Source: Candidatus Helarchaeota archaeon
GTDB lineage: Archaea > Asgardarchaeota > Lokiarchaeia > Helarchaeales > JABXJV01
Assembly (NCBI GenBank): GCA_013375355.1
Contig: JABXJV010000233.1
Coordinates: forward strand, 1-28,208
DNA length: 28,208 nucleotides
Direction of reading: 5' to 3'
Shown: positions 4,207-21,691 of the stretch, in pieces
Layout of the letters: the number at the start of each line of letters is the position of its first letter
How positions within the stretch are numbered: the stretch's first letter is position 1
Notes under the pieces: model-generated
What the model was told of the DNA's origin: nothing
Database searches by the model: none
The model's input: the letters and a program-made list of their open reading frames with translations, nothing else
Translations under genes and position numbers: made by a program

Positions 4207-4223
4207 GAAAATCTTTTATTTTT

Positions 4224-5149: not shown

Positions 5150-6592
5150 TTAATTTTTTTCATCTTCAACAAAATTATTTGAACTTTTCTTTTCGTAATT
5201 TATATTGTTTTTAATTTCCTTCATTTTAGTTTTAGATTTGTTTTTTTCTTTTAATTCTTTTTTAAGTCTCTCTTCCTGTTTTTTTACTTCTTTTTCAAGT
5301 CTCTCTTCCTGTTTTTTTACTTCTTTTTCAAGTCTCTCTTCCTGTTTTTTTGCTTCTTTTTCTGATTCCCTCATTAATTTTTCAAACTTTTTTCTCAATT
5401 TTTTATTCTCATTAAAAGAGAGAGCTACTTTTCGTTTTAATACTCTTTTAAGACTTTCAAAATACGGATCAAAAATTAATAATCTTTTCCATCTTGAAAA
5501 TAATCCCGTCTTATAAGAAATAACATGATAATAGGCTGTTTTGGATAAATCATCGATACCCATTTTCTCAATAGAAGACCATTTTATTTTTTTTGAAAAA
5601 TTAACATTACTAAACTGTAAATATTTATCCCATAGGCTAATTTGTAATACAGGTGTGCTTTTAAGAACAAATCCTATTGTATTTAAATTCTTTATAGTGA
5701 TTTTTAATGGAAATGAAGGATGAAATTGATTCAATGAAAGTAGATCTCTTTCATATAGTTTTATATCCATTGAATATCGATTCCAACTTTTAAATTGTTG
5801 TTTAAAAGCTCTGAAATGTGAAAGATATTCGATAAGATTTTTAATTTCTGTATCCTCTTCCGTAGGAACTTTAACTTCAATATTTTCTTTATTTCGGAAT
5901 ATATTTTTATTAATTTTTTCTAAATTTATTTTTAAATCCATAAGACTTGACATTATTAATTTATCTTTTAATAGTGCAATCGGAATTGGAATAAAAGCCT
6001 CTATATTTTCAGATTCATCTAATTTATATAATTTTCGATTTTTTTCAGTATTGATACTTTGTTGGAATAATTTCAATTTATCAATAAGGCTTTGATTTGA
6101 TTCTTTGAAATTGTGTAAATAATTTAAATTTGGAGTAAAACTAGTAAAACCACTAATATTACCAGGTTTTGAATTTACGGCCAATAATTCATACTGAACG
6201 GGATCAACAACAATCGCAGATAAAGAAGGGTTTAATTTGGATAAATATGTATAAGTCTCTTGATCAGTTGGTGATAAAAATACACCTAAATTTGGATGTG
6301 TATGGATCCAAGTAATAATATTAAAATTTTCATCATTAAATTTTTCTTCAATATCATCTAGAGCATTTCGAATAACTTGGAATATTTCTCTTCTAAACTC
6401 ACAATACCCAGAGCTTTGAGTTTTTTGGGGTGGAAGAACAGCAGCTATACAATGAAGTTCACCATTCATTTCTCGACCTATAAGAAGTCCACCCCATTCA
6501 TAATCTGAAAAACGAAATGTATGATCTATAAATTGTTCAAAGACACTTCTTTCAATATGTAATTTTTCCGGTATTTGAGATCCTATTTCCAT
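5150..6592 (-). CDS. JAMM/JAB-domain metallopeptidase with C-terminal coiled coil (candidate Ubl deconjugase)
   Basis: Residues about 8-150 form a JAB/MPN domain with an intact zinc site: Glu32 (YEWGGLLIG), then H97-T-H99 with seven residues before Ser107 and Asp110 (IHTHPNLGVFLSPTD). This is the full JAMM motif of Rpn11/AMSH-type deubiquitinases, so the enzyme should be active on Ubl tails or conjugates. Residues about 300-395 (KITIKNLN..., WSSIEKM, LLIFDP) may form a small beta-barrel of PH-like type; that is tentative. From about 400 the protein is a highly charged coiled coil with three near-identical 11-residue units (KKQEERLEKEV). The ATG at 6592 has AGGATG upstream, and the gene starts 12 bp after the E1 stop. 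Length (480 aa) is well above a bare JAB protein, so the tail probably anchors or oligomerises it. Confidence 0.88.
   Translation of the reverse strand: MEIGSQIPEKLHIERSVFEQFIDHTFRFSDYEWGGLLIGREMNGELHCIAAVLPPQKTQSSGYCEFRREIFQVIRNALDDIEEKFNDENFNIITWIHTHPNLGVFLSPTDQETYTYLSKLNPSLSAIVVDPVQYELLAVNSKPGNISGFTSFTPNLNYLHNFKESNQSLIDKLKLFQQSINTEKNRKLYKLDESENIEAFIPIPIALLKDKLIMSSLMDLKINLEKINKNIFRNKENIEVKVPTEEDTEIKNLIEYLSHFRAFKQQFKSWNRYSMDIKLYERDLLSLNQFHPSFPLKITIKNLNTIGFVLKSTPVLQISLWDKYLQFSNVNFSKKIKWSSIEKMGIDDLSKTAYYHVISYKTGLFSRWKRLLIFDPYFESLKRVLKRKVALSFNENKKLRKKFEKLMRESEKEAKKQEERLEKEVKKQEERLEKEVKKQEERLKKELKEKNKSKTKMKEIKNNINYEKKSSNNFVEDEKN
5267..5365. repeat. Three tandem 33-bp units inside the JAB gene
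   Basis: The sequence tctctcttcctg recurs at 5267, 5300 and 5333, exactly 33 bp apart, with the intervening bases nearly identical; the third unit has begun to diverge at its end and a weaker partial copy precedes the first. The unit is a multiple of three and encodes 11 residues of charged coiled coil, so expansion or contraction would preserve the frame. Confidence 0.85.
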
Positions 6593-6604: not shown

Positions 6605-8422
6605 CTAAAAAAATTTAAATGGATTTTCAAAATCCTCTAAATTTAGATGCTTTGGGCAACCTTTTTTGATTTTATGTTTACAAGCTTTTCCTGAACAAGT
6701 TGCCAGCATTTGATATCTCCCATAATATTGCATAAAATGATGTAAGCTGTTCTCTTTAGGTTTAATTAAATGAGCAAGGGATAAAGCGGCTTGTAATCCC
6801 CCAATTATCGATATAGTAGTTACTATCGATAAAGTGGGTAAAACACCTGTACAACTAACTACTTTAACTTCTCTTTTGCTTTTTTCTCCATACCTACAGA
6901 CATAACAATCCCTATCAGGCTCAAATAAATCTACCTTGCCTTCAAAAATTTCTCCTCCAGCATTAACTAAAGGGATTTTACATAATTTTCCAATTAAAGA
7001 ACAAATATAACGTGTACGAATATTATCTGGTCCTGCAACAATTAGATCAGAATCTTTAATTTCATTAGCCATTACGAGATCCTCCCCTACAACCTCAGTT
7101 GGAATAGTAGTTCCTGGGATATATGTGACATTTTTCTTTTTTTCCTTATACTCTTCTAATGTCATAAATTCTTTATTTAAGATATTGTTTGCAGTTCCAA
7201 TTTCTAATTCAAAATCAAGTGCAGTAATCTTATTTTTAGAATTCAATTCTTCCAAAGCTTTTTTTGCTGCAATTGCCTTCGGAATACCAATACTTGCCCG
7301 ATTAAAAAGAATTTGTCTGTTTAAATTATGTTCTTCAACCCGATCATCGAGATCATCAATAACAAAATGACAATTCATTGTGTTTGAAAGGCTAAATAAA
7401 GTACTTACCCAGCTTCCAATTCCTCCAACTCCTAGAAAAAAAATTTTTTTATTTTCTAAAGAGGAAGGAATATTAACATCGACATCAATGATTTTTCCAT
7501 TTACAATTTTCGTATCTTTAAATGGCGAAATAATTAAAGATTCTTTAAATTTATAATGTTCTGGGTTACCTTCGTCTAAAATTTCAATCAAATTATATAC
7601 TACACGAGTAAGATACGAATCTTCAGGGAAGGTGCATCGAATTATTACCCGATCTGGATTAATTCGGTTTTCTTTTCGTTCTTTAGTTCCATCAAAAAAT
7701 TTTACTTCCTCATAAAAAGGCTCAAATGTTGCTGGAACTGTTTCTCCACCTAATTTAATCCTCACGTCGAATGGTAAACCTTGGTGTTTATTTGCAAATT
7801 CAACACAATGGTCATATATATTATTTCTTTGAATTACGTATCTCATTTCTAAGTTGGCTGATAAAAATTCTGATCCTCTTATAAGTAAATTTCTTCTTAA
7901 CACTTCTTGAGCTGCTAATCCAGCTGAAATTGCACACAATGAAGGAGTCAAAATGTTCCAATCTGATTTTTCCACTTTTACTCGTTCTGCGCCAATATAA
8001 GCTGCAGTTTTTGAAGTTATTGCAAAAATCGGAGCCTCGTATTTAGGCATTTTCGGCATTCGATTAGAGTTAGTAAGAGCCACAATTGTAGAATCCCAAT
8101 TTATTGAATTCATATCAGGAGTTCCAAATATATTAAAATCTTCTGAAAATCTCTCCTTTACTCTACGTTTTATAGCAGACCACATTAGTTCTCCTTCGTC
8201 TTCGGGATGTAATAGATTTTGCCCTCTAATCTCCTTTTTAGAAACTCTTAAATCCTCAGGGAACACGATCATTCCTTGTGATGTCCCAACACCTAAAAAA
8301 CATAAATTTGCTACAAGATAAGGAATAATTGCACCTTCTCCAGTAATAAATACTTTCTCATCTTCGATTCTTTCTTGATAAACAAGCCCGAGTTGTCTCT
8401 TAAATAGCGTTGAAAATTCCAT
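6605..8422 (-). CDS. E1-like Ubl-activating enzyme with tandem inactive and active ThiF domains
   Basis: The protein has 605 aa. Residues about 5-190 are a degenerate ThiF domain: RQLGLVYQERI, a strand VFITGEGAI and a late helix CAISAGLAAQEVL, without the ATP-binding Arg/Asp set. Residues about 323-570 are an active one: GVGGIG nucleotide loop (331-336), DDLDD (356-360), Arg finger NLNRQ (Arg369), GPDN (464-467), and a Cys followed by VLP (SCTGVLP, Cys524), the best candidate for the thioester cysteine. CYVC (506/509) with C576 and C581 may bind zinc, as in MoeB-type enzymes. Residues 200-320 are unrecognised. No ubiquitin-fold domain follows. It should adenylate the Gly-Gly Ubl encoded two genes upstream and pass it to the neighbouring E2. 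The ATG has AGGGTGG upstream; the stop is TAG. Confidence 0.88.
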   Translation of the reverse strand: MEFSTLFKRQLGLVYQERIEDEKVFITGEGAIIPYLVANLCFLGVGTSQGMIVFPEDLRVSKKEIRGQNLLHPEDEGELMWSAIKRRVKERFSEDFNIFGTPDMNSINWDSTIVALTNSNRMPKMPKYEAPIFAITSKTAAYIGAERVKVEKSDWNILTPSLCAISAGLAAQEVLRRNLLIRGSEFLSANLEMRYVIQRNNIYDHCVEFANKHQGLPFDVRIKLGGETVPATFEPFYEEVKFFDGTKERKENRINPDRVIIRCTFPEDSYLTRVVYNLIEILDEGNPEHYKFKESLIISPFKDTKIVNGKIIDVDVNIPSSLENKKIFFLGVGGIGSWVSTLFSLSNTMNCHFVIDDLDDRVEEHNLNRQILFNRASIGIPKAIAAKKALEELNSKNKITALDFELEIGTANNILNKEFMTLEEYKEKKKNVTYIPGTTIPTEVVGEDLVMANEIKDSDLIVAGPDNIRTRYICSLIGKLCKIPLVNAGGEIFEGKVDLFEPDRDCYVCRYGEKSKREVKVVSCTGVLPTLSIVTTISIIGGLQAALSLAHLIKPKENSLHHFMQYYGRYQMLATCSGKACKHKIKKGCPKHLNLEDFENPFKFF

Positions 8423-8472: not shown

Positions 8473-8925
8473 TTAAAAAAGAGCCCTTCTTAATCGTTCC
8501 ATTGCTTCTCGACGTTGTTGAGGAGTTGCCCTAGCAGGATCATTCCAATTCTCGTTATTTAAAATGCGTTTTACTCCTTGTAAAAATGCAGATAAATGTC
8601 TATATCTGGTTAAAGCGTCTTTTAAATTTCCTAAGCAAATAAAAGGATAATAGCCGTTTAGTTTTGCACAACCTTTTGGAGGATAAATGTTTATATGACG
8701 AATTTGGGTATCGGGAATGTTAGTAATAAAAACATCTGGTATATGTCCGGGATAGTTGGTTAAGTCAATAAACATTTGATATTCTATCCTTGTTCTGTCA
8801 TTTTGGCCCCTAATTCCCTGCATTTTTATTGCGATTGCATAAACAAAGTTGCCTCTCTTACTTACAGCAATCATATCAGGAAATAATTTCTTAGTGTCTT
8901 GGAATTGTTCAATATAAACTGGCAC
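8473..8925 (-). CDS. E2-like Ubl-conjugating enzyme
   Basis: The protein is 150 aa, the size of a minimal UBC fold. Visible landmarks in order are the meander strand EYQMFIDLTNYPGHIPD (YP...P motif), HINIYPPKG in place of the E2 HPN tripeptide (His77-Ile-Asn79), the catalytic cysteine in YPFICLGN (Cys97) and an ILNNENWNDPA segment like the E2 helix-2 region before the C-terminal helix. His and Asn of HPN and the active-site Cys are kept while Pro is Ile, which suggests a divergent but active thioester carrier. It would accept the Ubl from the E1 encoded 50 bp downstream. The start is GTG at 8925, preceded by GGGTCGAAATT, the same string that precedes the Ubl start. No RING or HECT gene accompanies it. 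Confidence 0.85.
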   Translation of the reverse strand: MPVYIEQFQDTKKLFPDMIAVSKRGNFVYAIAIKMQGIRGQNDRTRIEYQMFIDLTNYPGHIPDVFITNIPDTQIRHINIYPPKGCAKLNGYYPFICLGNLKDALTRYRHLSAFLQGVKRILNNENWNDPARATPQQRREAMERLRRALF

Positions 8926-8954: not shown

Positions 8955-9188
8955 TTAAATTCCACCCGCAATATCTCTTCCCGGAGTTATATAAGCCTTA
9001 CATTCTTTTTGAGCAACTGGCATTTCAGTTATATCGTTACCTTCTTCATCAAGTATTGACCATTCAACATCTGTAGGAACTAGAAGCTGTTGCGTAGCAA
9101 TTTGCCCATAAGTCATGTTTATATCGGCTGAAACTCTTTGTTTTTTACCATTTAATGTATTTACAAATACAATTTCTACATCCGACAA
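8955..9188 (-). CDS. Ubiquitin-like modifier ending in Gly-Gly-Ile
   Basis: The protein is 77 aa, the length of ubiquitin, with an alternating beta pattern (VEIVFVNT...KKQRVSAD), a central helix (YGQIATQQLL) and strands WSILDEEG and KAYITPGRD, consistent with a beta-grasp fold. The chain ends GlyGly-Ile (75-77), so one residue must be removed to expose the diglycine, presumably by the JAB peptidase of the same operon. Similarity to ubiquitin itself is low; position ahead of E2, E1 and JAB genes and the C-terminus make the call. Translation starts at a TTG (9188) with GGGGGTCG eight bases upstream. It is first in the operon and so should be the most abundant product. Confidence 0.86.
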   Translation of the reverse strand: MSDVEIVFVNTLNGKKQRVSADINMTYGQIATQQLLVPTDVEWSILDEEGNDITEMPVAQKECKAYITPGRDIAGGI

Positions 9189-9201
9189 ATTTCGACCCCC
9201 A
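9186..9201 (-). promoter_or_regulatory. Strong ribosome-binding site and TTG start of the Ubl gene
   Basis: Read on the minus strand, GGGGGTCGAAATTTG places a G-rich Shine-Dalgarno-like run just before a TTG codon. This decides the TTG start, since no ATG lies in frame nearby. The E2 gene uses GGGTCGAAATTCTGTG, an almost identical arrangement with GTG. Confidence 0.6.
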
Positions 9202-9460
9202 TCTGGAGTTTTTATTATAATAATATTAATAATATTATTATTAATTATGCTTTTCTAATCTATTTATATATTGCCATTTTAAAAAATAGTATTAAACTTT
9301 AACTACGAAAATAATATATATTAAATAATTCAAATTTTTAAAAAGAAGATAAAGCGATTGCTGGGGTTAAAATGTTTTTGTATATTACCAAGCAAAATAG
9401 TAAATTGAAAAAGGAGTATATTCTTATATTTTTTAATTAAAATCAATAGGAAGTAATATT
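9189..9460. promoter_or_regulatory. Shared divergent promoter region of the Ubl operon and the paralogue array
   Basis: This 272-bp spacer separates the Ubl operon (minus) from the first zinc-ribbon paralogue (plus). On the minus strand TATATAAATA at 9261-9270 is a good TATA box, which would put the transcription start near 9240. On the plus strand CGAAAATAATATATA at 9306-9320 fits BRE plus TATA, with a start near 9340 and a leader of about 120 nt. Between them lies AT trinucleotide-rich DNA with a 14-bp palindrome at 9227-9240 (TAATAATATTATTA). A GGGGTTAAAATG block at 9363-9374 is repeated in front of the second paralogue. Confidence 0.6.
9281..9374 (+). repeat. Leader repeat copy A upstream of the first paralogue
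   Basis: This stretch aligns with 13416-13511 in front of the second paralogue. Both copies contain AAAAAATAGT, then AACTACGAAA (BRE-like) with a TATA-like run, an A-rich spacer and finally CTGGGGTTAAAATG, at nearly equal spacing (about 95 bp). The conserved ends with a degenerate middle suggest a duplicated promoter whose functional parts are under selection. Confidence 0.65.
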
Positions 9461-12400
9461 ATGGAAGTTACAGTTCAACCCTGGTCTGTAGTTTTATTTT
9501 GTTTAATTTTGATTCTTTATTATGCACTTTTTGAAAAATATAATAAAAGTTCGAATAGTGATAAACAACGAGATCAAGGTATTGCTCTTTTTATATTTTT
9601 TATTATAATACTAATTTCAATAGGCGTCGATCCATTAATCGGTGGATATATTGCCTGTAATATGATGCTTTTTCTTGCATCTATGATTATTTGGGACATC
9701 CCTATACCAACAAATCCTCTAAGTACAGAAGAGAAATATATAGAGCTTACGAGATACTCAGTCCTATTTTCATCAATTATTTTCAGCGTAAGTTTTACTT
9801 TTATGACTCTACCATTAAATATAGCAGGCGGAACTGTTGGTTTTATTGCAGGAGCTATTGTTTTTTTTGTATTAGGAATATTAATGGCATGTGATGAATC
9901 ATCTTCTGGAGGAAATTATCGGGAAAATCCCGTTCTTATACTTTTTTTTGCAGCTCTCTTTCCATTTTCAAATTCTATGATCTCAGTTTTTGCTTTCGGA
10001 AAAAATTCCAATACAAATTTCGATACCTATTTTGGTACAATTTTTCTTTTATATGGATTATTTGTTATGATTTCAGGATTAATTTTACTTTCTAAGGGAA
10101 AAGATTATGATCATGAAGCCTATTCAACATTTATTTATGCGTCAGGAATGTTGGTTTTATTTTTAGTAACTCTTTTCATTGATAATTCTGTTCTTTTTAT
10201 TGTTTATATATTGGTATCTATTGGTTTAATGGGTACTACAATTGGCTTAATGTTGTATCTTTTATTTGGTGAAGTTAAGAAAAAAAGACCAGTAAAATCC
10301 GATAAAATTACTGAAATTTCGCCTAAATATAGAGAAGACCAAATCGAAGATGATCAGAAGATTCTAACAGAAATTATCAATTCATTTATTCCTATTCGAA
10401 ATGAAATTAAACTGACTTTATGGTCACTTATAAATGAAAACATAGAATCTCTAAAATCGAAGTTTAAAAGTGAAAAAAATAAATTAGGGTTAAAAACGGT
10501 TAAAGCTTTTAATAAATATTTAGAAGGTCTAGAATTAATAAGGAGTTCAAACCCGAATAAGGCTACAAAAAAATTAATTAATGCTTTAAAATCTTTTCCA
10601 GAAATGGGTTTTGAAATAGAGCAATTTAAAATCTATGCAAACCTTGGAATATTATATAAGAAGCAAGAAAATAAGAAAAAAGCAGAAAAATCTATTTCTC
10701 ATTCCTGGAAATATTATAAGAAATGTAGTGAAGAGGAATTTCAAAAGTGGGGAGATTCTCATCTCAAGAAATATGTATTAAATGAAATTTATTTATCACG
10801 AAATAAAATCAAAGAAGTGGATCAACTTATTACAATTCTCGAAGAAAAATTATCTATTGTTAATAAAGAAACTGATAAAACAGAATATGAAACGATTCAA
10901 GAAGAATTTATTGTTACTCTTATTAATAATAAAGAATTTAATAAACTATTTGAATATTTCTCAGCTCATAATATTCAAATAGATGACTACTTAACACAAT
11001 TTGAAACAATTTTTTTGGAATTTACTAAAAAACCATCAATTGATCTAGCTTTGACGCTCTCAAAAATATATACTTTAGAATATATCCAAAATAAAACCAA
11101 AAAAATAATCGATGAATGGAAAGAGAAATCCTTTTCAAAAATGTATAAAATCTTTTATACCATGAGAGAAGAGATGATTGAAGAAGAAGAATTCAGGGCA
11201 ATCGTTGATTTATTTTTAGGAAGCGAAAAAGGTGCTCTAAAATTTATAATTGATATTTCATATTTAATTAAAACGTTATTGGAGGATCCGAAAAATGATA
11301 CCGCATTGAGTTTCTTATCTAACATTAAAAACGCTTTTGAAAATAGTGATAATGATATCGCTGCTGATATTATTGATTCATGGCTCCAAACCATTTATAC
11401 AACAAGATCAGTATCACCTGATCAGAAATCCAATTTTGATAACTTTTTACAGATTTTTAAAATATCTTTTGATATAGATTCCCCGATTTCACTCCTAGAG
11501 AGTCAAACATTTCTTATTAAGAAGTTTTTTAAAATAAGATTTAACTCTGATGATTTTAAAACCGACTTTGAAGTTTGTCAAGCTTTTTCAGATTTTATTA
11601 ATAAAACGAATGATTTATCTGAAAAAATTCTTGATTCCGAAAAGCGAAGATTGATCCTTAAGAAGTTTAGATTAATCAACTTAGAATATTTTCTGAGAGC
11701 TTGGGTGTATAATTCAGTTCCAAATATATTTAAACTTAAAGATTCTATTGATCCTTTGTATAAACAATATTTAATTGATAAATTATATCCATTTCATACC
11801 GAAATTAAAAATCAAGTTCTTATTATAGCATTATTAGAAGAAAAATTGTCATTCATAAGAAAAGAGATTAACGAACTCGAATATCAGGAGATTAAACAAA
11901 AGATTTCAAATATTAAGCATTCATATATCATGTCTTTGCTTACTAAAGATAAAAATCATATCGATGCAATTAGATTTCTGGAAATTTTTAACCTTAAACT
12001 AGATCCTTATATAGATCATTTTCAATCTTTCTATAAAGCAATTAGAAAAAATCCAAGTGTTAATACTATGGATTCATTCTTAAAAATATTCTCCTTAGAT
12101 TGCATAGATCCTGAAAATAAGGCGATAATTGATGAATGGAAAAATAATTTATCATCGAAGATTTACAAATTCTATATTAACAATAGAGACAAAATCGTTC
12201 AAAAAGGAGCTTTTAAACAAATAGTCAATTTCATCATTAAATATTCAGAAGATTCTCAAAAATTCTTTGAAGATTTGTTCAATTTTGCTAGACAATTATT
12301 TAAAGAACCTCATGATAAAAAAATTATGTCATTTTTACTATATACTAATGAAATTCTTCAAGAAACTGGTAATAAATTGCATGCAGAGACAATACATTCA

Positions 12401-13393
12401 TGGATAACTGTTACAATTCAATTAAGAAAAATATCTAGAGACTCCAAAGCATTTTTTGATATAATTTTACAGGCTTTTAAATCTTCAGAAGACCATTTCA
12501 TTCCCCTAACACTTCTAGGCATCTATTATGATGAAAATTTTTCACGCCGTGGATACACCTCTGATATAGGACCTAATAATAGATTTTCTGAATTTCTTGG
12601 TGAAATTAGTAATCTAGTTTATAGCTCATCAGATTTTCCCAATAAAGATTTTATGGTAAATCAAATTTATGAGTATACAAAAGCTTTAGCCGAATCATAT
12701 AGTAATATTATCTTATCGAGAATGCGAAACCAAACTATTGATTATATCCAATCATTAGGACGGAATGCCTTACCTTATGTTGCTAGCTCCTTGATGCAAA
12801 ATATTTCTAGCCACAATCCTGCCCCGATTTCTAGGGCACTTATAATTCTCATTAATAAATGGAGAATTCTTCCTGTATTAGAAAAAACAAATTATTTTGG
12901 TTATCAAATACAAACGGTTAGCCTTAAACCCAATTTTTGGCTTGGTGTGTTTCAATTAATTCTTGCACATCACTATGGAGAATATTATCAGCGACTTACT
13001 AAAAACGAAATTGTTCATCATAAAAACCTTTTGGAAATTGTGGAAGCATATTTAACATTTTTTTATGAAGTTCAACAATTACCAGAAGTAAACATCTCTT
13101 ATTCGGAAAATAGAGATCATACAATTGAATTTTTGAAAAAAATAAGTGAGCAAAATCAATTTACAAACGAAGAAATACGCTCTCTTATTAATTCTACTAA
13201 TTGGAGCGGAGATGCAAAATATATACTTAAAAAAGTAATTGAAGAGAAGAACTTTTGTATATATTGCAGTTATAATATGCCCCCCAAATCTAAAAAATGC
13301 CCTAATTGTGGTAAAGAAGTAAAAAAAATATCTGTTGATGAGACATCCATTGATTTCGGAGCAATGAGTGATTTCTTTGGCTCTGGATCTTAA
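9461..13393 (+). CDS. Membrane-anchored helical-repeat protein with C-terminal zinc ribbon, paralogue 1
   Basis: The protein has 1310 aa. Residues about 8-268 contain roughly nine hydrophobic membrane segments. Residues 300-425 are TPR-like helices (LKSKFKSEKNKLG, NPNKATKKLINALKSFP). A module of about 330 residues then occurs twice: SWKYYKK...EEKLSIVNKETDK...PSIDLAL from about 415, and AWVYNS...EEKLSFIRKE...NPSVNTM from about 747. Residues about 1000-1265 form the domain shared by all four paralogues (SRMRNQ, NPAPISR, KPNFWLGV, VHHKN). The end is a ribbon C-x2-C-x10-C-x2-C (C1266, C1269, C1280, C1283) and the tail TSIDFGAMSDFFGSGS. No known family is recognised. The topology suggests a membrane anchor with a large cytosolic scaffold. 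It is divergent from the Ubl operon and has its own promoter. Confidence 0.82.
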   Translation: MEVTVQPWSVVLFCLILILYYALFEKYNKSSNSDKQRDQGIALFIFFIIILISIGVDPLIGGYIACNMMLFLASMIIWDIPIPTNPLSTEEKYIELTRYSVLFSSIIFSVSFTFMTLPLNIAGGTVGFIAGAIVFFVLGILMACDESSSGGNYRENPVLILFFAALFPFSNSMISVFAFGKNSNTNFDTYFGTIFLLYGLFVMISGLILLSKGKDYDHEAYSTFIYASGMLVLFLVTLFIDNSVLFIVYILVSIGLMGTTIGLMLYLLFGEVKKKRPVKSDKITEISPKYREDQIEDDQKILTEIINSFIPIRNEIKLTLWSLINENIESLKSKFKSEKNKLGLKTVKAFNKYLEGLELIRSSNPNKATKKLINALKSFPEMGFEIEQFKIYANLGILYKKQENKKKAEKSISHSWKYYKKCSEEEFQKWGDSHLKKYVLNEIYLSRNKIKEVDQLITILEEKLSIVNKETDKTEYETIQEEFIVTLINNKEFNKLFEYFSAHNIQIDDYLTQFETIFLEFTKKPSIDLALTLSKIYTLEYIQNKTKKIIDEWKEKSFSKMYKIFYTMREEMIEEEEFRAIVDLFLGSEKGALKFIIDISYLIKTLLEDPKNDTALSFLSNIKNAFENSDNDIAADIIDSWLQTIYTTRSVSPDQKSNFDNFLQIFKISFDIDSPISLLESQTFLIKKFFKIRFNSDDFKTDFEVCQAFSDFINKTNDLSEKILDSEKRRLILKKFRLINLEYFLRAWVYNSVPNIFKLKDSIDPLYKQYLIDKLYPFHTEIKNQVLIIALLEEKLSFIRKEINELEYQEIKQKISNIKHSYIMSLLTKDKNHIDAIRFLEIFNLKLDPYIDHFQSFYKAIRKNPSVNTMDSFLKIFSLDCIDPENKAIIDEWKNNLSSKIYKFYINNRDKIVQKGAFKQIVNFIIKYSEDSQKFFEDLFNFARQLFKEPHDKKIMSFLLYTNEILQETGNKLHAETIHSWITVTIQLRKISRDSKAFFDIILQAFKSSEDHFIPLTLLGIYYDENFSRRGYTSDIGPNNRFSEFLGEISNLVYSSSDFPNKDFMVNQIYEYTKALAESYSNIILSRMRNQTIDYIQSLGRNALPYVASSLMQNISSHNPAPISRALIILINKWRILPVLEKTNYFGYQIQTVSLKPNFWLGVFQLILAHHYGEYYQRLTKNEIVHHKNLLEIVEAYLTFFYEVQQLPEVNISYSENRDHTIEFLKKISEQNQFTNEEIRSLINSTNWSGDAKYILKKVIEEKNFCIYCSYNMPPKSKKCPNCGKEVKKISVDETSIDFGAMSDFFGSGS

Positions 13394-13698
13394 ACCCTAA
13401 TTTAAATTATTAATCTAAAAAATAGTTTTATACTCTTAACTACGAAATTTATAAGTATAATTTATTAAAAAAATTAAATAGAAAAAAAAAGAGAACTCTG
13501 GGGTTAAAATGATTTTATTATATTTAAGCACATTTATACCATTAACCTCACGAGAATCATTTTTTATTGAATTAATCACCAAAATTTTTAATGAGAAAAT
13601 AATAAAATTCTCTCTTTTATTAAATTGGAGGAAATTCTTGCTGGTTTGATAGCGTTAAAAATATATGGAATTAATTTTTATATGGAGGATGGAAAAAA
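13394..13698 (+). promoter_or_regulatory. Intergenic region and duplicated promoter/leader before paralogue 2
   Basis: This 305-bp gap separates paralogues 1 and 2. Its first part repeats the leader of paralogue 1. CGAAATTTATAAG at 13443-13455 is a good BRE/TATA match, which would put transcription start near 13480. CTGGGGTTAAAATG follows at 13498-13511. The remainder to 13698 has no credible gene; a 46-codon frame opening at 13509 encodes a peptide unlike the one in the equivalent position before paralogue 1. GGAGG at 13683-13687 is the ribosome-binding site of paralogue 2. Paralogue 2 is therefore likely transcribed independently of paralogue 1. Confidence 0.55.
13416..13511 (+). repeat. 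Leader repeat copy B upstream of the second paralogue
   Basis: This is the second copy of the 9281-9374 leader, sharing AAAAAATAGT, TTAACTACGAAA with a following TATA-like element, and CTGGGGTTAAAATG. The TATA element is better here (TTTATAAG) than in copy A. Confidence 0.65.
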
Positions 13699-16600
13699 AT
13701 GGATTTAGCAGATTATGTGATCCTATATTTCATGTTTACTGGAATAAATAACTATTATGCTCTTGGTGTTGTCATTCTTTTAATTTCAGGTGATTTAACA
13801 TCTACAATTCGAATTATGATTCTTGTAAATTTAATTGGTTATAAAAATTATACAATATTTGGAATAATTTTTATGATTTTTTCCAGTATTATGCTTTACA
13901 TGTTTTTTTTAACTCGGGATTTTGATAGAGATGAAAGATATCCATCTGATACAAAGAAAGGTCTTATAATCTTTTCCTTTATTGTCCAAATCTTATTGTC
14001 ATTTATTGGAATAACCTCGAATATTATGCTTCCTATAATTTTTGCATGTATTCTAATGCTACTTGTTGTTCCAAGTATAGTTAATGCAGATTTTGAGGAA
14101 GGTTTGAAATTAGAAGCTACAAAGATTTTAGTATTTTTTGGGGTTTTACTATTTTACATTTGGTTTTTAATTGCAATGCCACCTACTAATCTAGGGCAAA
14201 AACAGCTTAAGATATTAACTGGTGCGGTTTTTGCTACAGGAGGAGGTATCTTTTCGTTTATTGGATTAGTTACATTAAGTGGTACTGATGACCTAAATAA
14301 AGAAAAGAAGGATGCAATATCAGAAACTTTTTGGATTTCTGGCGTTCTTTCACTTTCAACTTTCACAATATATAGAAGGTTATTAAAAGGGACACCTAGC
14401 AATTACTATATAGGCTGGGTAGTAACAATAGTGCTTTTTTTCATAATAGCATTAGTATTGTTAATTGATGGATTATCATTATCTGACAAAAAGAAATTAG
14501 GTAAAAAAATTGGCTATTGTATTTATTCTGGAGGATTATTAGTATTAATTTATTTAGCAGAATACACCTATTCAACAGATGTCGATCTTAGCTTAGCTTT
14601 TCCTCCAATTATTATGCCTAATGCAATAAATTTTCCGAGTCTTTCTATTTTATTCATTAGTCTTTCATTATTTATGATAAGTACCTCATTTTTGCTTTTA
14701 TTTAGTGTGAAATATCCAGACAAGTTTGAAGCTTTTAAAGGATTAAAAATTACAGGAAGGAAAAAGCTAACTGAAATGCCAAGGGAAACTCCTTTTATTT
14801 CTCCCACTCCTTACCAAGAAGATATTGATGAAATGGGAAGAATAAGCCTTAGTCTGGAACAATCTGAAACTGAAAGAGCTGAAGAAATGAGCATAAAACC
14901 AAGCTCTAGGCACTCTCTCATTCTTGAAAATCAAGTAAAATATGATATTCCAAATCCAACTAGATCAACTGCTCAAATACTCAGGAATTTAAACACAATT
15001 AGACAAAATATTAAAGACAATAAATGGGGTGAATTATTGGATAACTTAGAATCTCTAAAATCTAGTTTTGGGATTAAAAAGAACAAATTAAGAAAAAATA
15101 TTTCAAATGCCTACTTGAATTTTACTGAGGGTTTAGAATTTATTGGGACCTCTAATCCAGAGAAAGCTGTAAAGAAATTCAAAAAGGCTTTAAAATTATT
15201 TCCAATGTATGGTTTTGAATTAGAACAATTCCGGACTCATGCTAATCTCGGGATTACTTATAAGAAATTAGGGAAAGAGAACGAATCCTTTGACCATAAT
15301 TATAAAGCTTGGCAAGCATATAATAAATGTGATATAGATGAATTTAATGAATGGGGAGATAATGAACTTAAAAATTATGCTTTAAATCAAATTTTTCCGT
15401 TAATCAATAAAATTAAAGAAGTATATCAAGTAATTTCTATTTTTAAAGAGAAATTGTCACTTATAGATAAAGAAACTGACAAGGAAGAATATGAAAAAAT
15501 TCTAAATGAATTCATATTTTTTCAAATTAATAATGAAAAATACACTGAACTTTTAGATTTTCTTTTAAACAATAAAATTCCTCCAGATAAATATATGGCA
15601 TTTCTTAGAAAACCTTTTAAAAATTTCATTAAAAAACCTTCTCTAGAATTAGCTCTAGTTTTAGTTAAACTCTTTTCACTTGAATTTCTTAAAAGAGAAT
15701 CGACAGATTCAATAAAAGTTATGAAAGAAGAAGCATTTCCTTTAATCTATAAAATATTTTATTCGGAAATGGAAGAAATAATCCAAGATGATGTTTATAA
15801 ACATTTTGTTAATTTTGTCCTTAATGATACAAGTGGAGCTCAGCAATTTATCATAGACACCTCAGGTTTTGTTAAACAAGTGCTAATAAATCCTTATGAT
15901 AAAGATATCATGAATTTTTTAATAACTATAAGACAAATATTTGAAAATATTGGAAATATGGTTGCTTTTAATATTTTCAATTCTTGGATTTCAATAATAA
16001 ATGAGATGAAGCAATTTGGTCGGGATATTAATAAAATATTTAAAAACATATTGCAAGTTTTTGTTAATTCAAAGGAAATTGTTTCTAAAGATTCCCTTAT
16101 CGATATTGAAATTTCGTTAATGGAAACTTATTTTGCTCAAAGTTTTCAATCAAAACTAATAAAATTGGAAATAGAAGTTTGTGAATCTTTTTCAAACTTA
16201 ATTCATAATATAAATATCATAATTGGTAATTTGTCAGATGATTTGAATAAAGATTTCTTTCTCGGAAGAATAATACTTCTCAATTCAGAATATTATATTG
16301 AAGCATGGAAGTATAATTCAACACCTAATGATTTTAAAATTAAAGAATCAATAGACCCTCTTTTGAAACAAATTTTAGTGGACAAACTCTTCCCTTTACG
16401 TACACAGATTAATAATCAAAGGCTGTGTATTGAATTATTATTAGAAAAATTGACATATATCGATCGGATAACTGATAAACTACAGCATCAAGAGATTGAA
16501 AATGAAATCTCTGATAAAAAAAATGAGTATCTTATGAATTTACTTTCTAAAGTAAAAATGTATAACATGGCTATTGATTTTATGAAGGATTTTAATATTC

Positions 16601-17994
16601 GATTAGATAAATACTTGGATTATTTTGAACCCTTTTATAAATCTACCAAATCAAAACCATCTATAGAAAGGTATAATGCAATGATAAAATTATTATCTTT
16701 AGATTGTTCTGATCCTGAATCAAAAATTATTTTTAATAAATGGATAGAGGTAATTACCTCTGAAATATATAAATTCTTCAAATTAAACACGTTAGAAATA
16801 GTTGAACAGGGAGATTTTAAGCCAATCATTAATTTTATACTAAAGTATACAGCAGATTATCAAATGTTTTTAGGTGTTGCCAATAATTTAGCTAAAAATT
16901 TATTTGATTCTCCTCAAAATAAGAAATATATGGCATTTTTATTATTTGCAAATGAAATATTCCAAGATGCTGGTTATAAAAATGAGGCAGAAAATATTCA
17001 TTCATATATTCAAATCATACTTCAATTAAGGAAAATATCAAACAGAAACTCTAAGCCGTTTTTTAATGTAATTTTAGATGCTTTCAAATATTCAAAAGAC
17101 CATTTTGCTCCAGTTACATTAATGGAATCATTTTATACAAATAACTTCTTAAAATCTAGAACCTATACAGATGTAAAAGTTTGCAATAATTTATCCGATT
17201 TTCTCAATGAATTAAGAGTTTTAATCTATAATACTCCTGATTTTCTTAATAAAGACGAAATTCTTGAAAAAATCAATAATTATACAAATATGATAGCAGA
17301 AACTTTTATCAATGTAATAAGATCAAGAATGAGAATGCAAAATATCGAGGATATTCAGACTCTTGGACCGCGTGTTTTTCCAAGGGTTGCTTCAAACTTA
17401 ATGAAAGATATTTCTAATGTGAATCCTTCACCAATGTCAAGATGTCTTTTAAATTTAATCGATAATTGGCGAACTCTTCCTGTGTTAGAAAAAACTGAGG
17501 TTTTTTATTATCAACGTCAGATAATAAAGATCAAACCAGTTTTTTGGTTTGGGGTATTTGAGCTTATTCTTAGGGTCCATTATGGAGAATATTTTGGAAG
17601 GCTTCCAAAAAATGAAACAGTTCACCATCAAAATATTATAGAAATCATAAAAACTTATATTACTTTCTTTTATGAACTTCAACAATGTCCATCTGTTAAT
17701 ATTTCCTATTCCCAAAATAGGGATCAGGTAATAAATTACTTAAAGAAAATGAATGAGGCTAATCAATTATCTGATAACGAATTACGAAGCCTTATTTATT
17801 CTAGCGACTGGAGTTCAGATGCGAAGTATATGTTAAAAAAATTAATTGAAGAGAAAAATTTTTGCATATATTGTAGCTATAATATGCCGCCTGGATCAGA
17901 TAAATGCCCAAATTGTGGGAAGGAAGTGGGTAAGTTATCCCCTGATGAACCAGCCATAGATATGGGAGCAATGGACGATTTTTTTAGCTCCTAA
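13699..17994 (+). CDS. Membrane-anchored helical-repeat protein with C-terminal zinc ribbon, paralogue 2
   Basis: The protein has 1431 aa, the longest in the array. Residues about 5-336 hold roughly nine to ten membrane segments, not obviously alignable with those of paralogue 1. A charged linker (about 340-420) follows, then the same TPR-like block (LESLKSSFGIKKNKL, SNPEKAVKKFKKALKLFP), the same module of about 330 residues in two copies (EKLSLIDKETDK and EKLTYIDRITDK), the shared C-terminal domain (SRMRMQN, NPSPMSR, KPVFWFGV, VHHQN) and the ribbon at C1389, C1392, C1403 and C1406. The tail is AIDMGAMDDFFSS. GGAGG precedes the ATG. Paralogues 3 and 4 follow at 34 and 39 bp, so the three probably form one transcript. 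Function is unknown; a membrane-bound scaffold near the Ubl system is the working idea. Confidence 0.82.
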   Translation: MDLADYVILYFMFTGINNYYALGVVILLISGDLTSTIRIMILVNLIGYKNYTIFGIIFMIFSSIMLYMFFLTRDFDRDERYPSDTKKGLIIFSFIVQILLSFIGITSNIMLPIIFACILMLLVVPSIVNADFEEGLKLEATKILVFFGVLLFYIWFLIAMPPTNLGQKQLKILTGAVFATGGGIFSFIGLVTLSGTDDLNKEKKDAISETFWISGVLSLSTFTIYRRLLKGTPSNYYIGWVVTIVLFFIIALVLLIDGLSLSDKKKLGKKIGYCIYSGGLLVLIYLAEYTYSTDVDLSLAFPPIIMPNAINFPSLSILFISLSLFMISTSFLLLFSVKYPDKFEAFKGLKITGRKKLTEMPRETPFISPTPYQEDIDEMGRISLSLEQSETERAEEMSIKPSSRHSLILENQVKYDIPNPTRSTAQILRNLNTIRQNIKDNKWGELLDNLESLKSSFGIKKNKLRKNISNAYLNFTEGLEFIGTSNPEKAVKKFKKALKLFPMYGFELEQFRTHANLGITYKKLGKENESFDHNYKAWQAYNKCDIDEFNEWGDNELKNYALNQIFPLINKIKEVYQVISIFKEKLSLIDKETDKEEYEKILNEFIFFQINNEKYTELLDFLLNNKIPPDKYMAFLRKPFKNFIKKPSLELALVLVKLFSLEFLKRESTDSIKVMKEEAFPLIYKIFYSEMEEIIQDDVYKHFVNFVLNDTSGAQQFIIDTSGFVKQVLINPYDKDIMNFLITIRQIFENIGNMVAFNIFNSWISIINEMKQFGRDINKIFKNILQVFVNSKEIVSKDSLIDIEISLMETYFAQSFQSKLIKLEIEVCESFSNLIHNINIIIGNLSDDLNKDFFLGRIILLNSEYYIEAWKYNSTPNDFKIKESIDPLLKQILVDKLFPLRTQINNQRLCIELLLEKLTYIDRITDKLQHQEIENEISDKKNEYLMNLLSKVKMYNMAIDFMKDFNIRLDKYLDYFEPFYKSTKSKPSIERYNAMIKLLSLDCSDPESKIIFNKWIEVITSEIYKFFKLNTLEIVEQGDFKPIINFILKYTADYQMFLGVANNLAKNLFDSPQNKKYMAFLLFANEIFQDAGYKNEAENIHSYIQIILQLRKISNRNSKPFFNVILDAFKYSKDHFAPVTLMESFYTNNFLKSRTYTDVKVCNNLSDFLNELRVLIYNTPDFLNKDEILEKINNYTNMIAETFINVIRSRMRMQNIEDIQTLGPRVFPRVASNLMKDISNVNPSPMSRCLLNLIDNWRTLPVLEKTEVFYYQRQIIKIKPVFWFGVFELILRVHYGEYFGRLPKNETVHHQNIIEIIKTYITFFYELQQCPSVNISYSQNRDQVINYLKKMNEANQLSDNELRSLIYSSDWSSDAKYMLKKLIEEKNFCIYCSYNMPPGSDKCPNCGKEVGKLSPDEPAIDMGAMDDFFSS

Positions 17995-18028
17995 TCTTTA
18001 AGATAAATTATTAAGGGATGTAAAAAAA

Positions 18029-20164
18029 TTGGATTATTTTCAAACAGAATTTAGTAAGGAACAATCTGATGAAATCATAGAAGATTTTCATAATCTTTAC
18101 AATTTGTTATATGAAAATCAAATAAAAATTAAGGATGATAGACCAAATGAATCAGCATTGCTAATTATTCAACAGTTAAATTTAATTCGAATTATTTTAA
18201 GCCAAAGTAAATGGATTGAGGCATTAGATGGATTAAAGTCTTTATCGGAGGATTTTAAATCAGAAAAAAATAAACTTGGTATGAAAATCATGAAAGCATA
18301 TGGAAGCTTTTTAGATGGTTTAGAATCATTTGGGATTCCGGAGCCAAATGAAGCTATCAAAAGATTTAAGAATGCGAAAAAATCATTTCCAAAGATTGGA
18401 TTTGAATTAGAACAATTTAAAGCGAGTACTTATATTGGTATGTTGTGTGATAACCTTAAAAATACAAAATCCGCTTTAAAAAATTATTTTGAAGCTTGGA
18501 AATGGTATACCAAATGCCCTAATATTGAATTTGATAAACTTGGGGATGATAAATTAAAAAAATATCTTATGAAAAAACTCTATCCAATTCGAGAACAAAT
18601 TAAAGATGAAGAATCAAAATTTACAATTCTTAAAGAAAAATTAGCGATTGTCAGTAAAGAGGTTGAATATGAAGAAATTGAGAAAGAATACATTAACACA
18701 TTAATACATTATAAAAAATATTATAGAGCCCTTGATTTTTTATCTGAAAAAGGAGTTAATTTGGACAAATATCTGAAAAATTTTGAACCATTATATAAAT
18801 CGTTCCAAAAGAAGCAATCTATTGAATTATTAATTGCAATTTCAAAGCTATTTATGATGGAATGTTTTCAAGCTGAAACAAGAGATTTGCTTGTTAGATG
18901 GAAAGAAGAATTATATCAAAAAATCTATGCTTCATTCAAAAAGAATAAAGAAAATATGATTGAACAAGTTAATTTCAACCTTGTTGTTAGCTTTATACTT
19001 AGTAAAGAGAAGATAGCTCCAACTTTCGTTATTGATATTTTTGATTTAGCTAAAAGCTTATATCTTGATTATGATAATAAAAAGATCTTTGCATTTCTTT
19101 TAGCCACAAACGAAATTCTTCAAGATATCGGGTATAGGAGAGAAGCGGAAGTTGTTCATACTTGGATTCAAATCACACTTGCATTAAGAAAAATACAAAA
19201 CACAGAATCTAAGGATTTTCTGGATATAATTTTAAATACAATTAGTAAATCTAATGATTTTCAATCACCTATTTACTTGATGGAGTTATTTTTCAAACAA
19301 GCCTTTTTAAAATATGGGGGTGCTGACGTATATACTTGCAATATTTTTGCAGATTTTATTCATGAATTAAAAAATATCATTTATATTATGCTAAATTATC
19401 CAAGTAGAGACTTTATTCTTCAAAAAATTGAAGAATATATGGTGACATTAGTAAAAAATTATAAGAATATAATGCTTTCTCGAATGAAATCCCAAGATGT
19501 TGATACGATTCGAATGCAAGGGAGAAACGCATTCCCTGCGGTTGCTGGAGCGATAATGAAGGATATTTCAGAAGTTAATCCATCTCCAGTTTCTAGAGTT
19601 CTACAGCATTTCATAAATAATTGGCATTATCTTCCAGATTTGAAAAAAGTGAAACGTATGTATAACTCGACTTTAACAACAAAAATCAAACCGGTATTTT
19701 GGTTTGGTGTTATGGAATTGATTATTGCTCGACTCCACAGTGTTAACCATCAAAGACTTCCAAAAAATGAAGATGTACATCATGAAAATATTATTGAAAT
19801 TATAATTACATATATTAATTTCTTTCATGAATTGAAAAAAGTACCCGAGGTGAAAATCTCAAATAGGGAGAATAGGGAAAACTTAATAAAGTTTATGAAA
19901 AAAATGAATGAAATTCACCAGTTCTCAGATGAAGACTTAAAAGAAATAATATATTTTAGTAAATGGAAATCTAGTGCAAAGAAAATCCTTAAAATACTAA
20001 TTGAAGAAAAAAATTTCTGTATATATTGTAGTTACAACATGCCCCCCAAAGCAAAAAAATGTCCAAATTGTGGTAAGAAAGTTGGTGAGATATCATCCGA
20101 AGAACCGAGCGTAGATTTTGGTCAAATGGGTGATTTTTTTGGAACATCATCTGAAGATCAATAA
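18029..20164 (+). CDS. Soluble helical-repeat protein with C-terminal zinc ribbon, paralogue 3
   Basis: The protein has 711 aa and lacks the membrane domain. It begins with an acidic stretch and the TPR-like block (LKSLSEDFKSEKNKLGMK, EPNEAIKRFKNAKKSFP), then only one copy of the module duplicated in paralogues 1 and 2 (EKLAIVSKEVEY, KKQSIELL), the shared C-terminal domain (SRMKSQD, NPSPVSR, KPVFWFGV, VHHEN) and the ribbon at C664, C667, C678 and C681. The tail is PSVDFGQMGDFFGTSSEDQ. The start is a TTG at 18029, supported by AGGGATG at 18014-18020 and by the absence of a better in-frame codon. It is probably cotranscribed with paralogue 2 and could assemble with the membrane-bound versions through the shared domain. 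Confidence 0.82.
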   Translation: MDYFQTEFSKEQSDEIIEDFHNLYNLLYENQIKIKDDRPNESALLIIQQLNLIRIILSQSKWIEALDGLKSLSEDFKSEKNKLGMKIMKAYGSFLDGLESFGIPEPNEAIKRFKNAKKSFPKIGFELEQFKASTYIGMLCDNLKNTKSALKNYFEAWKWYTKCPNIEFDKLGDDKLKKYLMKKLYPIREQIKDEESKFTILKEKLAIVSKEVEYEEIEKEYINTLIHYKKYYRALDFLSEKGVNLDKYLKNFEPLYKSFQKKQSIELLIAISKLFMMECFQAETRDLLVRWKEELYQKIYASFKKNKENMIEQVNFNLVVSFILSKEKIAPTFVIDIFDLAKSLYLDYDNKKIFAFLLATNEILQDIGYRREAEVVHTWIQITLALRKIQNTESKDFLDIILNTISKSNDFQSPIYLMELFFKQAFLKYGGADVYTCNIFADFIHELKNIIYIMLNYPSRDFILQKIEEYMVTLVKNYKNIMLSRMKSQDVDTIRMQGRNAFPAVAGAIMKDISEVNPSPVSRVLQHFINNWHYLPDLKKVKRMYNSTLTTKIKPVFWFGVMELIIARLHSVNHQRLPKNEDVHHENIIEIIITYINFFHELKKVPEVKISNRENRENLIKFMKKMNEIHQFSDEDLKEIIYFSKWKSSAKKILKILIEEKNFCIYCSYNMPPKAKKCPNCGKKVGEISSEEPSVDFGQMGDFFGTSSEDQ

Positions 20165-20203
20165 ATAAATACAATCAAGGAATTTATTTAAATGTGAAAA
20201 TTA

Positions 20204-21691
20204 ATGAAAAAGAAAAAAATTCCCTTAAGTTCGAATTTAAAAAGGTATTCACTACATAAAGAAGAAGTACCCTTTGAAAAGGTAAAAAAAATTAAAAATG
20301 AAGATTTAGACAGACTAGAAAATATAAAAAAAAGAATAAAACTTGAACTAGAAAATCTTTTTTTGGAATTAAATCAAAATGAAGTAATTTATTGCTTAAG
20401 TTGTGGTCTTAATTTAACAAAATATGAAAACATATCGAAATGTCCTTATTGTGAAACTCTAATTGAACAGCAAGGAGATTTTAAGCAAATCATTGGTTTG
20501 ATTATTAATAATGTTGATAAATTCCAAGATTTTATTGTTGATTTTTCAGAATTTATATTACGAGATTTTAAAAATCTAGAAAATAAAAAGATACTTGCTT
20601 TTTTATCACACCTCAATAAAAATCTTCGTAAAAAGGGATATAAAACAGAAGCAAATACTATTTATAATTGGACAAAGATAGCTCTAGAATTTAAGAATAT
20701 CCAAATTGATAATACTAGATTATTTTTGGACTTTATTTTAAATAAATTAAAAGAAACGAGAGCGTTTCTTGCAATAAAATCGTTAATTGATGTTTTTTAT
20801 AAAGAACATAGATTATTATTTCAAAATATTGAATATGTAGATACTTGGAATGAATTTTCGAATTTTCTTAATGATATTAAACATATCACATATGAATCAC
20901 CTAATCAAGCATATAAAGATATAATTCTTCATCGAATTGAGCATTATTCAAATGTTTTAGCTGATGCATACCAAAAATTAATAATATCTAGAATGAAGAA
21001 GCAAAATGTCGATACGGTACTTAAATTTGGCCCAAATTCACTTTTTATTGTTTTGGAGAGGCTTATTGAAAATATATCAAAATCGAATCCTTCCCCTTTT
21101 TCAAGATGTCTTAATAACTTGATTGATCTATGGCGGATTTTTCCCAGATTAGAAAAATATATTAATTTTAGAACCCTAAAATATAGATATTCTTACAGAT
21201 TACCAGCTCAGATTATAGTTATTAAACCAATTTTCTGGTATATTATAATTAAAATTATTCTTGATAAATTTTTTATTGAATATTATCAAAGTCTTCCTAA
21301 AAGTGAAACTATATATAAAGAAAATATACTAGAAATCCTTGCAGTCTATATAAATTATTTTTATGAACATTTTAATATCCCATCAGTTCCTCTAGCTTAT
21401 TCCCAAAATAGGGAATATTTTATAAAGTTTTTAAATAAGATCAATGAAAAAACCCGTTGTTCTAATGAAGAATTGCGAAATCTTATTTTAAATAGTAAAT
21501 GGAAATCTGATAGTGAAATAATTTTCAAAAAAATTATAGAACATAAAAATTATTGCATATATTGTAGTTATAATATGCCACTTAACGCTATCTCATGTAC
21601 AAATTGTGGTAAACCCGTTAAAGAAGTGACATTTGAGAAACCAACAATTGATTTTGTAAAAATGGAAGATTTTTTTGGTAAGCCTTCCTAA
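20204..21691 (+). CDS. Shortest helical-repeat protein with two zinc ribbons, paralogue 4
   Basis: The protein has 495 aa. A Lys-rich N-terminus of about 55 residues leads into a ribbon not seen at this place in the other paralogues: C64-LS-C67 ... C80-PY-C83. It sits directly before IEQQGDFKQIIGLI, which corresponds to VEQGDFKPIINFI in the second module of paralogue 2. The rest is the last part of the repeat module, the shared C-terminal domain (SRMKKQN, NPSPFSR, KPIFWYII) and the usual ribbon (C451, C454, C465, C468) with tail TIDFVKMEDFFGKPS. The ribbon spacing and the tail are kept although the body is strongly reduced. The ATG at 20204 has only a weak AAGG upstream. It is the last gene of the probable three-gene transcript. 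Confidence 0.8.
   Translation: MKKKKIPLSSNLKRYSLHKEEVPFEKVKKIKNEDLDRLENIKKRIKLELENLFLELNQNEVIYCLSCGLNLTKYENISKCPYCETLIEQQGDFKQIIGLIINNVDKFQDFIVDFSEFILRDFKNLENKKILAFLSHLNKNLRKKGYKTEANTIYNWTKIALEFKNIQIDNTRLFLDFILNKLKETRAFLAIKSLIDVFYKEHRLLFQNIEYVDTWNEFSNFLNDIKHITYESPNQAYKDIILHRIEHYSNVLADAYQKLIISRMKKQNVDTVLKFGPNSLFIVLERLIENISKSNPSPFSRCLNNLIDLWRIFPRLEKYINFRTLKYRYSYRLPAQIIVIKPIFWYIIIKIILDKFFIEYYQSLPKSETIYKENILEILAVYINYFYEHFNIPSVPLAYSQNREYFIKFLNKINEKTRCSNEELRNLILNSKWKSDSEIIFKKIIEHKNYCIYCSYNMPLNAISCTNCGKPVKEVTFEKPTIDFVKMEDFFGKPS

Follow-up and report, generated by a model that had tools for sequence, protein, structure and literature searches.

Four tandem genes of an Asgard archaeon encode helical, zinc-ribbon-bearing proteins that may serve as modular targeting proteins (adaptors, a platform or E3-like receptors) for the ubiquitin-like protein (Ubl) conjugation system encoded beside them, a reading drawn from sequence comparison that we prefer tentatively and would not yet call probable. 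The genes, here A to D, lie in the window, meaning the whole 28,208-bp stretch analysed (contig JABXJV010000233.1 of Candidatus Helarchaeota archaeon; guanine-cytosine content 24-38% in 1-kb steps), and face away from the Ubl operon. The N-terminal parts of these proteins and of their relatives in other Asgard genomes vary: polytopic membrane (A, B), soluble helical (C), TPR (a protein on contig G001:C15) or a beta-propeller ectodomain with a membrane segment (giant proteins of genomes G001 and G048). The C-terminal output part is common: a helical solenoid leads into a C4 zinc ribbon, to which the window type adds a short conserved tail. Conservation climbs toward the ribbon, and the module stands beside a Ubl-E2-E1-JAMM-transglutaminase operon at three loci, in two arrangements.

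A preliminary description of this DNA had reported four tandem related genes with a shared C-terminal part, a C-x2-C-x10-C-x2-C ribbon and a tail, divergent from the Ubl operon, two of them encoding polytopic membrane proteins. Open reading frames (ORFs), BLASTP, alignment and hydropathy bear this out. The shared domain, put at about 260 residues, measures ~400, and 'giant', the word applied to all four paralogues, does not fit C or D (Table 1). In their best BLASTP segments all six pairs are 38-44% identical (E <=8e-90 each): A-B 40% over 1385 columns, A-C 42% over 481, B-C 44% over 566, A-D 39% over 409, B-D 40% over 406 and C-D 38% over 412. By these alignments A, B, C and D are true paralogues. 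A and B can be aligned across nearly their whole length, including their N-terminal membrane domains (22% identical over 240 columns, E 2e-5), and in both a second, ribbonless solenoid copy precedes the C-terminal one, the two copies being 27.6% identical over 272 aa in A and 28.2% identical over 294 aa in B. Hydropathy finds no membrane segment in C, and the single segment of D (335-353) falls on a solenoid segment common to A-D.

Within the ~400 C-terminal residues common to the four, which comprise solenoid, ribbon and tail, mean pairwise identity is 29-48% in the solenoid, 63% in the pre-ribbon helix, 79% in the ribbon (79.4% for residues 663-683 of C), 38% in the linker and 58% in the tail. 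The C-terminal ribbon reads CIYC-x10-C(P/T)NC throughout, and the tail residues D696, M700, D702, F703 and F704 (C numbering) are invariant in A-D and in the database sequence P0002. An AlphaFold2 model of C built from five sequences (mean predicted local distance difference test score, pLDDT, 77.6) is an all-helical solenoid with one beta hairpin; its ribbon is of middling confidence and its tail block has a pLDDT of 28-31. A tail that is conserved yet modelled with low confidence is as expected for a short binding motif. The solved structures listed by Foldseek and VIA-align are all generic TPR/HEAT-type solenoids such as LGN, APPBP2 and Tom70, which share the all-helical repeat fold with the paralogues.

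The operon across the spacer runs on the minus strand in the order Ubl-E2-E1-JAMM-transglutaminase. The Pfam matches of the E1, the JAB domain and the transglutaminase core indicate that this Ubl operon is real, and the transglutaminase-fold protein carries the motifs of a Cys-His-Asp triad (GSCED, RHVWSEVYD, PIDI). The JAMM motif is intact, and the E1 has both its nucleotide motif and its Cys motif. No Pfam match covers the N-terminal half of the E1-like enzyme, and searches of PDB for E2 and Ubl returned no useful match; the putative identities of these two proteins rest on weak or no profile matches together with motifs and conserved gene order. A single residue follows the di-glycine of the Ubl. 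Among the 18 window ORFs scanned, no RING family passes its Pfam cut-off. At E <=1e-3 the E1 finds 46 database entries including itself, and every one with a named organism is Asgard; the closest relatives are 72-82% identical, and those with names come from Candidatus Hodarchaeota, Lokiarchaeota and Helarchaeota.

Table 1. Features of the paralogue array and the facing Ubl operon (positions in the window)
Feature	Positions	Strand	Basis
Transglutaminase-fold protein, last operon gene	4224..5123	-	Pfam PF01841 9.1e-23
JAMM/JAB metalloprotease, HTHPNLGVFLSPTD motif, long C-terminal extension	5150..6592	-	Pfam PF01398 3.1e-8
E1-like enzyme; ThiF match at residues 320-570; GVGGIG and SCTG motifs	6605..8422	-	Pfam PF00899 7.6e-36
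Putative E2-like protein; H77-x-N79, C86 and C97 invariant in three sequences	8473..8925	-	PADLOC E2 0.0024 and alignment
Putative Ubl, 77 aa, ending ...PGRDIAGG-I (di-glycine plus one residue); TTG start at 9188	8955..9188	-	
Spacer, 272 bp, divergent, between Ubl operon and paralogue array	9189..9460	.	
Paralogue A, 1310 aa: membrane domain, two solenoid modules, ribbon, tail	9461..13393	+	ORF, BLASTP, alignment
Membrane domain of A, residues 5-268, 9 hydropathy segments	9473..10264	+	Hydropathy
Ribbon of A, CIYC-x10-CPNC, residues 1266-1283	13256..13309	+	
Paralogue B, 1431 aa: membrane domain (residues 24-335, 8 hydropathy segments), two solenoid modules, ribbon, tail	13699..17994	+	
Ribbon of B, residues 1389-1406	17863..17916	+	
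Paralogue C, 711 aa, TTG start: soluble helical solenoid, ribbon, tail	18029..20164	+	
Ribbon of C, residues 664-681	20018..20071	+	
Tail of C, conserved, residues 694-706, SVDFGQMGDFFGT	20108..20146	+	Low pLDDT in model
Paralogue D, 495 aa: N-terminal ribbon, one solenoid module, ribbon, tail	20204..21691	+	
C-terminal ribbon of D, CIYC-x10-CTNC, residues 451-468	21554..21607	+	

The same operon, again with a module protein as neighbour, occurs in genomes of Thorarchaeotal type (Thor type). An alignment of the window E1 with 35 of the 45 other listed matches was used to scan named genomes and yielded 159 relatives. From these, 79 loci were retained, and genes were inspected in seven: L001-L005, L015 and L049. 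Locus L001 (Candidatus Thorarchaeota, RDNZ01000017, identical with contig G001:C12) carries the same five genes, with identities to the window of 49% for the Ubl (which ends DIAGG-A), 57% for E2, 49% for E1 and 29% for the transglutaminase; the window E2 is 35% identical to that of L002. Convergent to the transglutaminase gene of L001 lie a gene for a 233-aa double-ribbon protein and then a module reading frame of 3,889 aa. Besides SBBP beta-propeller repeats and TSP3 repeats, its product has a single strong membrane segment and a helical region, and its C-terminal ribbon reads CVYCSFELP-x5-CPNC. On contig G219:C25 the five genes recur in unchanged order; convergent to the transglutaminase gene there is again a double-ribbon protein, of 247 aa, followed by the end of a module protein that is cut at the contig end. 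A module protein thus adjoins the operon in all three Asgard E1 loci with readable surroundings (window, L001, G219:C25), at the 5' end of the operon in the window and at its 3' end in the other two. Inspection by eye showed no RING protein in the L001 and G219:C25 operons.

Two details of these loci stand apart. The double-ribbon proteins (L001 8548-9249, minus strand; G219:C25 27025-27768, minus strand) are 38% identical and sit between transglutaminase and module protein in both; no counterpart was seen among the window ORFs, for which no profile search was made. The JAMM frame of L001 (6425-7567, plus strand) starts inside the JAMM domain, possibly through an assembly or sequencing error, and the G219 copy is full length.

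Co-occurrence was counted over 227 Asgard genomes (the phylum of the L001 genome). The E1 profile at 1e-20 is found in two of them, G001 (the genome of L001) and G219, and the operon-type E2 in the same two. A ten-sequence module profile at 1e-6 matches six genomes, two of which were dropped as ribbon-only (29.5 and 29.8 bits), leaving four: G001 and G219 with two copies each, G048 and G162. Both E1 genomes are thus among the module genomes, an overlap that, with kinship left uncorrected, would arise by chance with probability 2.3e-4. A narrower module profile at 1e-3 reaches 74 of the 227 genomes, with all but 6 of the listed matches below 30 bits and mostly confined to 25-45 ribbon residues; such ribbon-only matches do not enter the count of four. 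The best ribbon-only ORF under the window-only profile described below (L102, 27.3 bits), an 87-aa contig-end piece, could be a member of the module family. The database search with C found a sole relative, 59% identical, in a Promethearchaeota metagenome-assembled genome (7,996 candidates scored, proteins over ~1,240 aa not being considered), and module profile A1 found no relative in the named genomes.

The further module proteins are as varied as those of the window: soluble, membrane and giant forms recur, all with one output module. The G001:C15 protein is soluble, 684 aa long and begins with TPR; in its locus (L121, 146-2887) a gene for a Ras-family GTPase follows 72 bp later on the same strand. 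The protein at the start of G219:C16 (988 aa, two hydropathy segments) shares 35% identity with the L001 giant over 890 columns. The distance from this copy to the end of its contig is 24 bp; over 114 aa it shares 83% identity with the end piece of G219:C25, and the two contig-end copies (L085 13769-14119, at the end of G219:C25, and L120 25-2991, at the start of G219:C16) lie in fitting orientation. With such high identity between two contig-end pieces, assembly may have split what was a tandem pair, which would parallel the window array. The G048 giant (3,091 aa) has an SBBP, beta-helix and PKD ectodomain, and the G162 copy is cut by a contig end. Upstream of the G048 giant by 253 bp, on the same strand, is a gene for a ThiS/MoaD-family Ubl (L119, contig G048:C222, 13795-14010, minus strand; E 1.1e-8), whose VAGG is followed by 11 further residues.

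How far these proteins are related to the window type was measured by BLASTP. C aligns with the L001 giant (27.5% over 211 columns that cover residues 518-701 of C, including ~145 residues before the ribbon), with the G048 giant (30% over 120 columns), with the G219:C16 protein (33% over 102) and with the G001:C15 protein (33% over 66). A profile made from window sequences only scores 55.4 bits for the G001 giant, 48.0 for G219:C16 and 33.2 for the G048 giant, and at most 27.3 for ribbon-only ORFs in 30 loci. A ribbon-free segment of 170 residues scores 3.2-5.6 standard deviations above residue shuffles in all four proteins and tops all other tried segments of the same protein in two of the four only. 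These alignments argue for homology beyond the ribbon to the G001 giant, G219:C16, G001:C15, G048 and G162, in aligned stretches, ribbon included, of 66-211 columns. Because the ribbon-free hhalign comparison given below failed, homology of window and Thor types is claimed for the C-terminal BLASTP stretches only. AlphaFold2 run on the L001 module as a single sequence reached a pLDDT of 43.5, too poor for the model to be used.

The ribbon itself has no clear family. Of Pfam and NCBIfam, no model is matched by A-D at its cut-off (the listed matches are weak ones to ribbons, namely Zn_Ribbon_1 and DZR of Pfam, to TPR, and scattered), and PADLOC gives none at E up to 0.1; the earlier remark that no known family is recognisable holds in these libraries. 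Searched against PDB sequences, C matched only eL40, at E 0.17, and a ribbon profile whose alignment included full-length P0002 matched eL40 and RadA at 0.31-0.49; these matches were taken as noise. A RING cross-brace has eight zinc ligands and holds two zincs. A RING-type E3 was rejected for the paralogues: there is a single four-Cys ribbon in each of A, B and C and a pair in D, and zf-C3HC4_3 matches in A, C and D are sub-threshold. In D, 367 residues separate the C-terminal ribbon from the extra N-terminal one (C64-C83).

NZF (Npl4/RanBP2-type) fingers have the Cys spacing C-x2-C-x10-C-x2-C, a conserved Trp two residues before the first Cys and a T-F pair after the second. All four paralogues have this spacing, and S-Y, S-F or N-F follows the second ribbon Cys in 10 of 11 module proteins (G048 has T-E, with no aromatic residue); other Asgard ribbons have Gly after the second Cys in 8 of 9 cases (plus strand of 26 short loci). 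Membership of the NZF family was nevertheless rejected: the zf-RanBP profile is absent from the families listed at E up to 1 for A-D (HMMER filters drop most matches above ~0.1), and none of the 11 proteins has Trp two residues before the first Cys: A-D and P0002 carry N there, and the remaining six carry D, E, K or N. The S/N plus aromatic pair resembles the T-F of ubiquitin-binding NZF fingers, and the contrast with the other Asgard ribbons is to be taken as a lead. In HOIL-1L, Phe202 and Ile203 of the NZF have been linked to ubiquitin binding (PMC10511788).

Prokaryotic Ubl operons with E1, E2 and JAB are already known (PMC1779556, PMC5654768, PMC11354881), and the new element is the ribbon-solenoid companions of the Ubl operon. 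In a literature search with most subscription journals outside its reach, none of the titles and abstracts listed dealt with this ribbon-solenoid family, and no paper combined Asgard, ubiquitin-like and transglutaminase. Canonical archaeal and Asgard clusters, as in Caldiarchaeum subterraneum, comprise Ub, E1-like, E2-like, a small RING protein and Rpn11/JAMM (PMC5654768). Like the window operon, they group a standalone Ubl with sequence beyond its di-glycine with E1-like, E2-like and JAMM genes; unlike it, they have a RING protein, whereas the window operon lacks one and has a transglutaminase-fold gene and solenoid-ribbon proteins. The E1 classes also differ, and G048 has what looks by eye like the canonical type on C184 and C3, with no E1 match to the window class at 1e-20. 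A second comparison is operon type 6d of Iyer et al. (2006), which unites bacterial Ubl, E1, E2 and JAB with an alpha-helical protein suggested to be an enzyme (PMC1779556). Separate Ubl, E1, E2 and JAB genes with a fast-evolving, largely helical companion are common to both, whereas the window companions bear ribbons and are partly membrane-bound. Type 6d further has a JAB-N domain before JAB and an E2 without His before the Cys, neither of which is seen in the window operon: its JAB match covers residues 9-122 of 480, too near the N-terminus for another domain to precede it, and its E2 has H77-x-N79 before C86.

If A-D are targeting proteins, the JAMM protease would trim the Ubl to its di-glycine end, and E1 and E2 would charge it. 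Ribbon and tail would then dock Ubl, E2~Ubl or another operon protein, and the N-terminal part would fix the place (membrane) or the client (solenoid), the ribbon-solenoid proteins thus replacing the RING protein of canonical archaeal ubiquitin clusters. JAMM and transglutaminase would reverse the tag. A broader proposal, which we consider unlikely, is that these proteins represent a RING-independent class of Ubl targeting in Asgard archaea, in which one ribbon module on swapped arms would recruit a dedicated cascade to membranes or surface signals, so that membrane-localised Ubl signalling would predate eukaryotes. Eukaryotes have no closer known relatives than the Asgard archaea, which possess several ubiquitin-like systems, and the question arises how RING-less prokaryotic cascades pick their targets. 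A rare module that accompanies one Ubl operon and carries interchangeable membrane, surface or soluble arms offers a small, concrete set for testing archaeal target selection.

The genomic adjacency and the pattern of conservation that suggest adaptors would serve equally for readers or effectors, whose ribbon and tail would bind Ubl already attached while the membrane or solenoid part acts on tagged cargo, for example in membrane sorting, downstream of conjugation. The S/N and aromatic pair, if compared with that of NZF fingers, fits a Ubl-binding finger of this kind as well; no sorting genes are seen among the annotated ORFs of the window, and we regard such a role as improbable. That A-D are instead the main substrates, with attached Ubl controlling their stability or assembly, seems more doubtful still. 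Adjacency would again be natural, and lysine makes up 8.6-12.2% of A-D against 6.8-8.1% of four other window proteins, though 2.6-7.5% of the Thor, G048 and G162 relatives. However, substrates do not require a strongly conserved C-terminal ribbon and tail in common, and that the ribbon is more conserved than the solenoid speaks for binding and not for a site of modification.

The module family may also be an unrelated cell-envelope or scaffold family that chances to adjoin the operon, to which we attach a low probability. The two ectodomains scanned are made of ordinary SBBP, TSP3, beta-helix and PKD repeats, the orientation of the module genes toward the operon differs between lineages, and the module occurs without this E1 in G048 and G162 and on other contigs in G219 (C16) and G001 (C15). 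Adjacency in three of three Asgard operon loci, despite the rarity of both families (two and four of 227 genomes), speaks against chance, and so does the G048 giant, which adjoins a ThiS-family Ubl gene instead.

Several results weigh against a targeting role tied to this operon. Two of the four module genomes, G048 and G162, have neither an E1 match at 1e-20 nor an operon-type E2 (their other E1-like proteins reach at best E 1e-16 and 1e-14, respectively), and extra module proteins lie away from the operon on G001:C15 and at the start of G219:C16. Conversely, the Aminicenantes bacterium L002 has a full-length E1 relative (30%) and no module on its 7.5-kb contig. With the module present without this E1 and a bacterial E1 locus without the module, dependence is not strict. 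Both E1-positive genomes are probably Thorarchaeota, so the adjacency rests on about two independent lineages. The ribbon-free comparison of window and Thor-type solenoids is not significant (hhalign probability 0.8%, against as much as 2.8% for column-shuffled controls). The Thor type does not clearly retain the tail of the window type, and of the RING, HECT and zf-RanBP families none passes its Pfam cut-off in A-D. The single database relative of C, set against E1 relatives at 72-82% in the same database, also tells against the link. The preliminary description, which had suggested that the four proteins may be substrates, adaptors or the membrane platform of the Ubl system, had counted array without operon, or the reverse, in most genomes as evidence against this tie; G048, G162 and L002 go part of the way to this pattern. 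The proposed tie is partly supported, and the adjacency at the three Asgard E1 loci lends it real support.

Beyond Asgard, the module was found in none of the four genomes of bacterial or archaeal E1 relatives L002-L005, in a search run without a positive control. L002 (Candidatus Aminicenantes bacterium) has a Ubl-E1-E2-JAMM-type gene set at 470-5005. The E1 scan of viral contigs gave 14 loci, each a partial match within residues 312-408. A mobile-element origin was rejected, there being no tRNA in the window, no relative of C in the plasmid collection and no more than these partial viral matches.

A few neighbouring genes recur. PadR-type regulators lie near both operons, at 1675-2526 (minus strand) in the window and 1655-2515 (minus strand) in L001, and are 34.8% identical over 66 columns of the DNA-binding part only. 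A homologue of the RuBisCO large chain lies near a module protein both in the window (2855-4171) and in G048 (L119, 3-1127), the two being 56.6% identical over 376 columns; G048 has it despite having no Ubl operon of this class. A second, orphan operon-type E2 of G001 (L165, contig G001:C27, 6580-6981, minus strand) lies beside dehydrogenase-complex-like genes, with no E1 seen in 16 kb.

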